From: an uncultured Lachnospiraceae bacterium | GTDB lineage: Bacteria; Bacillota; Clostridia; Lachnospirales; Lachnospiraceae | NCBI GenBank assembly: GCA_947384285.1 | Contig: CANDGI010000001.1 | Coordinates: forward strand, 124,001-188,000 | Direction of reading: 5' to 3' | Length of the DNA: 64,000 nt | Part shown: positions 61,494 to 61,764 of the stretch, piece after piece | Numbering within the stretch: the first letter of the stretch is position 1 | Layout: each line of letters begins with the position of its first letter | Translations under genes and position numbers: made by a program | The notes under the pieces: generated by a model | Databases searched by the model: none | What the model was told of the DNA's origin: nothing | The model's input: only the letters and a program-made list of their open reading frames with translations

Positions 61494-61515
61494 AAGGTGA
61501 GAGTTATGGTATAAT
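61487..61515 (+). promoter_or_regulatory. promoter of metallopeptidase gene, at the head of the repeat array
   Basis: TTGTCA (61487-61492), 17 bases, extended -10 TGGTATAAT (61507-61515). The -10 is inside the first 72-bp repeat. About 325 bases before ATG 61840, so the transcript would include all repeats. Confidence 0.78.
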
Positions 61516-61764
61516 ATCGGCAGATATGATACGCGCCGAAGTGCGCATGTGTGACCATACCATATCACGGAGTGATTATGGTATAATATCGGCAGATATG
61601 ATACGCGCCGAAGTGCGCATGTGTGACCATACCATATCACGGAGTGATTATGGTATAATATCGGCAGATATGATACGCGCCGAAGTGCGCATCGGTGACC
61701 ATGCCATATCAGGGAGTGATTATGGTATAATATCGGCAGATATGATACACGCCGAAGTGCGCAT
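61504..61764 (+). repeat. 72-bp tandem repeat, 3.6 copies, each with extended -10
   Basis: Units start at 61504, 61576, 61648 and 61720; the last is partial and ends ~61764. Copies 1 and 2 are identical over most of their length, copies 3 and 4 have diverged (GTGTGACCATACC to GGTGACCATGCC). Every unit has TGGTATAATATCGGCAGATA followed by TGATACGCGCC and GTGCGCAT. Between units, ATACCATATCAC (61557-61568) pairs with GTGATTATGGTAT (61572-61584), a 12-bp hairpin whose right arm contains the extended -10. Only the first copy has a consensus -35 at 17 bases. Confidence 0.92.

Follow-up and report, generated by a model that had tools for sequence, protein, structure and literature searches.

The window, by which we mean the whole 64-kb stretch of Lachnospiraceae DNA analysed here, carries a tandem array between two divergently oriented genes (Table 1). 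The gene downstream of the array (hereafter the window gene) had been called a metallopeptidase gene in a preliminary description; it carries an HEGEH motif, yet the assignment is supported neither by a Pfam match at E ≤ 0.01 nor by an NCBIfam family above cut-off. In a consensus scan, the native plus-strand promoter of this gene showed 11 of 12 consensus matches, with a TG before the -10. The proposal of a shared promoter was correct, because the divergent promoter of the DUF2752 gene overlaps the -35 element of the plus-strand promoter (61465-61515), with TTTGTCAAA being read both ways; this stretch is found in relatives too. Among the array copies only the first has a -35 element (TTGTCA-17-TATAAT), as had been stated, and two weak minus-strand sites with 9 of 12 matches lie inside the array.

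Table 1. Features at the array locus (positions in the window).
Feature	Position	Strand	Description	Basis
DUF2752 gene	60979..61419	-	divergent gene	PF10825, E 2.4e-16
Promoter of DUF2752 gene	61465..61493	-	divergent; TTGACA-17-TATACT	consensus scan
Native promoter of window gene	61487..61515	+	TTGTCA (61487-61492), 17-bp spacer, extended -10 TATGGTATAAT (TATAAT 61510-61515)	consensus scan; array-less relatives
Tandem array	61504..61765	+	3.6 copies of a 72-bp unit, 96% match; dispersed-family member	Tandem Repeats Finder; family searches
Unit 1	61510..61581	+	first TATAAT to base preceding next TATAAT	
Unit 2	61582..61653	+	same sequence as unit 1	
Unit 3	61654..61725	+		
Unit 4	61726..61765	+	partial; hairpins A and B only	
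Hairpin A, unit 1	61510..61531	+	TATAATATC-GGCA-GATATGATA, 8 of 9 pairs	by eye; family covariation
Hairpin B, unit 1	61533..61546	+	GC-rich; GCGC-CGAAGT-GCGC	by eye
Hairpin C, unit 1/2 joint	61557..61584	+	ATACCATATCAC (61557-61568), GGA loop, GTGATTATGGTAT (61572-61584)	by eye
Window gene	61840..62376	+	178 aa, HExxH motif (HEGEH)	

The 72-bp period and the extended -10 in every unit, both claimed previously, were borne out by Tandem Repeats Finder and by the sequence itself. We found TGGTATAAT exactly four times, at 61507, 61579, 61651 and 61723, and nowhere else in the 64 kb, and none of 100 shuffles of the window reached four copies, in agreement with the four-copy sequence reported before. 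The -10 box of a unit lies within the 5′ arm of hairpin A. Inspection by eye also located the hairpin that had been proposed at the joint between copies (hairpin C), with 12 pairs and one bulged base, extending into the following TATAAT; hairpins A and B of each unit had not been named. The predicted RNA fold of 61504-61770 was more stable than those of 200 shuffles (z -3.22), and Rfam gave no match in the window at gathering and none at E ≤ 1 over 61380-61860. Other repeats reported in the window by Tandem Repeats Finder are a 13-bp repeat (AGAAAGAAAACAT, 3.3 copies, 61783-61825) in the interval from the array to the ribosome-binding site; a 54-bp repeat (4.9 copies, 97% match, 55683-55944); a 43-bp repeat of 2.1-2.3 copies (62336-62437), which spans the end of the window gene and runs past the stop codon; and degenerate repeats of 36-135 bp at 24703-24975, which, at a guess by eye, are perhaps a Glu/Pro/Gln-rich coding stretch.

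The search for this unit upstream of other genes, which had been suggested as a check, located it upstream of many other Lachnospiraceae genes. The source genome (G000; 3.23 Mb in 74 contigs, 83% complete) carries the unit at 11 places, and a covariance model trained on 59 units gives 19 unit matches there at E ≤ 0.1. At least 21 of the 29 genus genomes, G000 included, have a family match, a lower bound because G028, with no match, still carries a unit before mutS2 (L314). An exact pattern scan of a species-genome collection returned 95 stretches; the 80 whose titles were listed were, judged by those titles only, from Lachnospiraceae, its genera, Clostridia, Eubacterium, Eubacteriales or a 'bacterium', and the genera named were Roseburia, Cuneatibacter, Murimonas, Petralouisia and Agathobacter. 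When a sample of Lachnospiraceae was searched with the covariance model under strict filters, 21 of 250 genomes and 20 of 249 genera matched. The exact pattern gave no stretch in viral contigs, plasmids and phages showed no match to the repeat family, and Rfam, searched with the window as above, gave none. A literature search gave no report that we recognised as describing it, which does not prove that none exists.

Merging by common flanks assigned 203 arrays in 289 loci to 130 distinct sites. The period of 127 units from 88 sites ranged from 43 to 98 bp, and 97 of these units had periods of 69-72, 78-81 or 88-89 bp. The near-constant parts are TATGGTATAAT, RTC, a loop that is mostly GNNA, GAY ATTATA and the closing ATGGTATAAT, and the variable parts are hairpin B, the spacer after it and the arms of hairpin C. 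All units of the window and nearly all of the 59 family units match TRTGNTATAAT, the sigma-70 extended -10. Hairpin A covaries across the family: in the 59 of 88 units used, 97.7% of cells were paired. Doubly changed cells numbered 27, whereas shuffles gave 5.8 and slid controls no more than 6. At a few sites even the -10 changes with its partner arm (TAAAAT/ATTTTA, TATCAT/ATGATA). A stem search of 82 units gave 8.6 pairs for hairpin A against 3.8 in shuffles, 6.9 against 4.3 for hairpin C, and 5.2 against 4.5 for hairpin B, with at least 6 pairs in 31 of 82 units against 15%. Because hairpin B is barely above shuffles in this simple stem finder, its pairing is recognised mainly by inspection; other GC-rich hairpins occupy its position elsewhere in the family. 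Terminal inverted repeats are absent from the 82 units, the best match of 14 positions being 6.7 both observed and shuffled.

These data bear on two rival readings of the array. The first is repeated coding sequence, a 107-aa open frame running through the four copies. The period of 72 is divisible by 3, and a single frame on each strand stays open, but divisibility by 3 holds for only 54 of 127 family units, and the sole family hit, HTH_13, is below cut-off and covers 18 residues; we rejected this highly improbable reading on the unit periods. The second is a structured 5′ leader RNA selected in the transcript, for example through mRNA-stabilising or attenuating hairpins. The stable fold of the array and the covariation of hairpin A would suit such an RNA, but Rfam gave no match at the thresholds above, the loops and hairpin B vary widely across the family, and DNA palindromes serving mobilisation would covary equally. 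Moreover, a transcript starting at a given -10 box would lack one arm of hairpin A, because the box is that arm. We consider a leader RNA an unlikely explanation of the array.

We examined where the arrays lie relative to genes and promoters. A start codon with a ribosome-binding-like site was present on the co-oriented side only at 62 of 118 sites, on the opposite side only at 7, on both sides at 32 and on neither at 17 (12 sites were dropped for short flanks), and in 49 of the 94 sites with a co-oriented start it lay 20-59 nt past the array. A -35-like hexamer, located 16-18 bp ahead of the first -10 and with at most 2 mismatches, was found at 42 of 124 sites (6 dropped), compared with 13% in shuffles (p = 4e-9) and with 112 of the 571 remaining TATAATs of these loci under the same criterion (p = 6e-4); the first -35 position was T in 62%. 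The 82 of the 124 sites that lack such a hexamer are not proven promoters. Comparing the two edges of the arrays, a -35 was seen at 40 of 119 left edges against 10 of 119 opposite edges, and TATAAT at 118 against 72. The left-edge TATAAT is partly a matter of construction, because the array-start profile itself contains TATGGTATAAT, and the two-edge comparison shares this bias, from which the orthologue comparisons below are free. Terminal boxes, obtained for 92 of 130 sites, were exact TATAAT in 35 and within one mismatch in 64 of the 81 without a following hairpin A. TATAAT flanks both sides at some loci, as a target site duplication might, but it also belongs to the unit. One array (L094) appeared by eye to be reversed relative to the promoter it abuts.

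We then compared orthologous promoters with and without the element. Matches to the window gene occur in 26 of the 29 genus genomes, at 27 loci, and these loci were scanned for TTTGTCAAA...TRTGNTATAAT, with one more mismatch type allowed. The promoter pattern was found in 13 of the 27 loci, and only the window's own locus has the array after the -10. By eye, a second, unrelated repeat follows in L105 and L106 and neither repeat is present in the other ten; for L120 and L125 the pattern match falls outside the displayed upstream stretch. A similar promoter with TATAGT and no element was seen by eye in L108, L109 and L112. For hpf, the pattern was present in 24 of 28 loci (L243 and probably L242 being mis-hits); the element follows the -10 in L234, and a shorter array was recognised by eye in L248, where the -35 differs from the pattern. 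For mutS2, TTGCAA-N17-TATAAT was present in 26 of 28 loci (L318 is a mis-hit), with the element directly 3′ of the -10 in L292 (from G000), L308 and L314. L293 has a decayed remnant and L294 has units, its contig beginning inside the array; the element was not seen in the remaining 23. At all three genes the promoter is shared by relatives that lack the element; where present, the element directly adjoins the 3′ side of the -10.

Two further genes show variants of this arrangement. Before serS, full units occur in L322 and L329, and a hairpin-A-like stretch stands alone behind the -10 in L323, L324, L325 and L328, which would be either a remnant or a precursor of the unit. The exception is cheR: its promoter, TTGACA-N17-TACCAT, is conserved, and in L002, L024 and L079 (the same genomes as L262-L264) the element lies about 22 bp 3′ of it and begins at a TATGG-like sequence rather than at the promoter's own -10. 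An element-like stretch is present there in L269 too.

The comparison bears on the view taken in the preliminary description, namely that the unit is a cis-regulatory module, an operator or promoter of a regulon that is under selection and multiplied to tune expression. It would account for the retention of TATGGTATAAT in nearly all of the 59 units, for compensatory changes that hold the hairpin A pairing even as the -10 changes, and for the sense orientation before genes. It does not predict that the downstream genes of 45 sites (the first 45 of 88 proteins) would match 57 Pfam families with at most three members each and share no common function, that most window-gene, hpf and mutS2 loci examined would lack the element, or that its presence would be as patchy as in the sampled genera. 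Overall, we regard such a module as improbable. The array is better called a mobile-type repeat first and a possible regulator second, because among the recognised promoters of the window gene it is found in this genome only, behind a conserved native promoter.

The positions fit either site-specific insertion 3′ of TATAAT or recombination via the shared extended -10. In the latter case there would be no transposition, and the unit would spread through the 11-bp TATGGTATAAT common to many promoters, a sequence that stands at both ends of many arrays and that, in this or a similar form, is carried by the native promoters of hpf and the window gene; no transposase has been linked to the unit either. 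However, 11 bp is short for homologous recombination. At mutS2, the TATAAT of the boxes bearing the element is preceded by CAGG or AAGG instead of TATGG, and three differing forms nevertheless took this -10 in different species. The mutS2 boxes favour site-specific insertion, and we consider spread by recombination rather unlikely. Since the elements in L292, L308 and L314 differ, chiefly in hairpin B, we take them for three separate insertions, to which exchange between resident copies would be an alternative. The pattern seen across the loci could also have arisen from old insertions that were precisely lost many times, or from resident copies exchanging with one another.

Array length varies between close relatives. 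Six of the 11 orthologous pairs compared have arrays of unequal length. In four of these the flanks are 97-100% identical: 222 against 150 bp in L013/L035 (flanks 250/250 and 300/300 identical), 358 against 148 bp in L034/L043 (249/250 and 292/300), 169 against 99 bp in L014/L045 (249/250 and 299/300) and 150 against 79 bp in L038/L056 (249/250 and 297/300). The other two are L017/L054, with 150 against 79 bp and 149/227 of the upstream flank alike, and L016/L052, with 221 against 152 bp and 152/226 alike. The remaining five pairs show the same or almost the same length, with L070 truncated by a contig end. Tandem copies can collapse in draft assemblies, which many of these genomes are, but collapse in one assembly is insufficient to explain the differences because the longer array alternates between genomes (G025/G026, G012/G016). 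The median identity was 94% for adjacent units (19 pairs), 81% for first units of different sites within one genome (81 pairs) and 70% for those between genomes (865 pairs). The copy-number variation that had been anticipated is thus present, and two of the three observations that the preliminary description had listed as counting against its own reading, a lack of variation and of any other occurrence, are contradicted by the differences in array length and by the family matches.

Taken together, these results suggest that the array is probably a non-autonomous mobile repeat that spares the promoter as it inserts at -10 boxes and that expands by tandem duplication. A palindromic Lachnospiraceae repeat of about 66 bp plus TATAAT would be copied from site to site, going in immediately 3′ of the -10 of an existing promoter and, as a rule, on the coding strand. 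Later arrival of the element at the -10 is the simplest reading of the comparisons at several loci, though it carries no date. Because the repeat brings its own TATGGTATAAT on the 3′ side, the promoter would survive with a -10 on both sides. Whole units would then be gained or lost by slippage or unequal exchange between direct repeats, which is consistent with the variation seen. The units would form the 5′ leader of the gene, bringing extra extended -10 boxes and hairpins. We infer from the sequences that they may act as extra promoters or tune expression: the extended -10 of each unit could start transcription, and the covarying hairpin may act in the DNA or in the leader RNA. The decoy role and the control of expression by copy number proposed in the preliminary description would be further possibilities.

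We also looked for a mobiliser. The presence of a Y1 transposase does not correlate with that of the element: G004, G023, G024 and G026 have elements and no PF01797, G005 and G008 have PF01797 and no element at E ≤ 1e-3, and in G000 PF01797 occurs only as a fragment below cut-off, although this comparison is compatible with loss of the transposase after spread. PDDEXK_2 nucleases were tried because the L028 element lies near a gene that we take, by eye, for an Rpn nuclease; they are present in all 29 genomes, so the comparison was uninformative and the candidate was dropped. A PDDEXK_2 nuclease-like stretch with one internal TAA lies in the window at 7441-7839 (G000:C1:131441-131839). In L069, two elements separated by 3.6 kb were considered as a composite transposon, and by eye the intervening open frames show no sign of one. 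In L084, what appears by eye to be an IS110-like gene lies near the element. No parent insertion sequence with the same ends was recognised in the five loci inspected, and neither these loci nor the Y1 comparison revealed a mobilising enzyme or an autonomous copy.

In different species, members of the family sit at one and the same base pair of given conserved promoters, which they leave intact. We tentatively suggest that the -10 box itself may be the target, perhaps through the single-stranded non-template TATAAT of the open complex, in which case the -10 would be rebuilt on both sides, genes would stay expressed and leaders would be replaced. If so, transposition would be tied to transcription initiation, and gut Lachnospiraceae could rewrite their leaders and, through unit number, possibly vary expression. 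Annotators of these genomes should check relatives before taking repeated -10 boxes and leaders for conserved regulation.

A second leader repeat, CCTGAGGAGGGACCC ... GGGAGGAGNCCTGAGG-like and unrelated to the first, was observed in L105, L106, L298, L315, L316, L317 and L319, with similar sequences in L235 and L253. In other species, as judged by eye, the repeat begins with a CCTGAGG-like sequence 4 nt past the -10 of the window gene, hpf or mutS2; in L106 it is tandem. It has no Rfam match in L106, L319, L298 or L235, and its core has two one-mismatch hits in the window, not above chance. If the -10 edge is targeted, the presence of the second repeat at the same spot would turn this edge into a general gateway for insertion in these bacteria.

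Several known systems resemble the family in part. REP/BIME sequences, associated with RAYT (Y1) transposases, are dispersed intergenic palindromes, sometimes arrayed, and REP/RAYT elements have GTAG at the hairpin foot. The Lachnospiraceae family likewise consists of dispersed palindromes in intergenic DNA, some in arrays, but GTAG on either strand occurs in only 10 of 82 units and there is no correlation with a Y1 gene. MIRU-type mycobacterial repeats are dispersed units of 50-100 bp in variable-number arrays; judged by description, the present family shares these traits and differs in the link between its position and promoters. Correia elements and other MITEs that bear promoters are small non-autonomous repeats that place sigma-70-like promoters beside genes and are named for their terminal inverted repeats (PMC10969869). 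Our family is also short, non-autonomous and dispersed in many copies (11 places in the source genome, at least 21 of 29 genomes), but it has no terminal inverted repeats, begins at a host -10 and depends on a host -35. BOX elements have the modular structure boxA-boxB-boxC. BOX, with RUP and SPRITE, comprises short structured repeats of Streptococcus pneumoniae whose module number varies between strains, likely affecting co-transcribed genes; BOX is over-represented between convergent genes, and the small pneumococcal repeats are enriched where transcription is least disturbed (PMC3049150). Judged by this description, BOX is the nearest to the Lachnospiraceae family in behaviour; in contrast to BOX, members of the Lachnospiraceae family precede genes, in many cases abutting the -10 box, and their units bring a -10 of their own.
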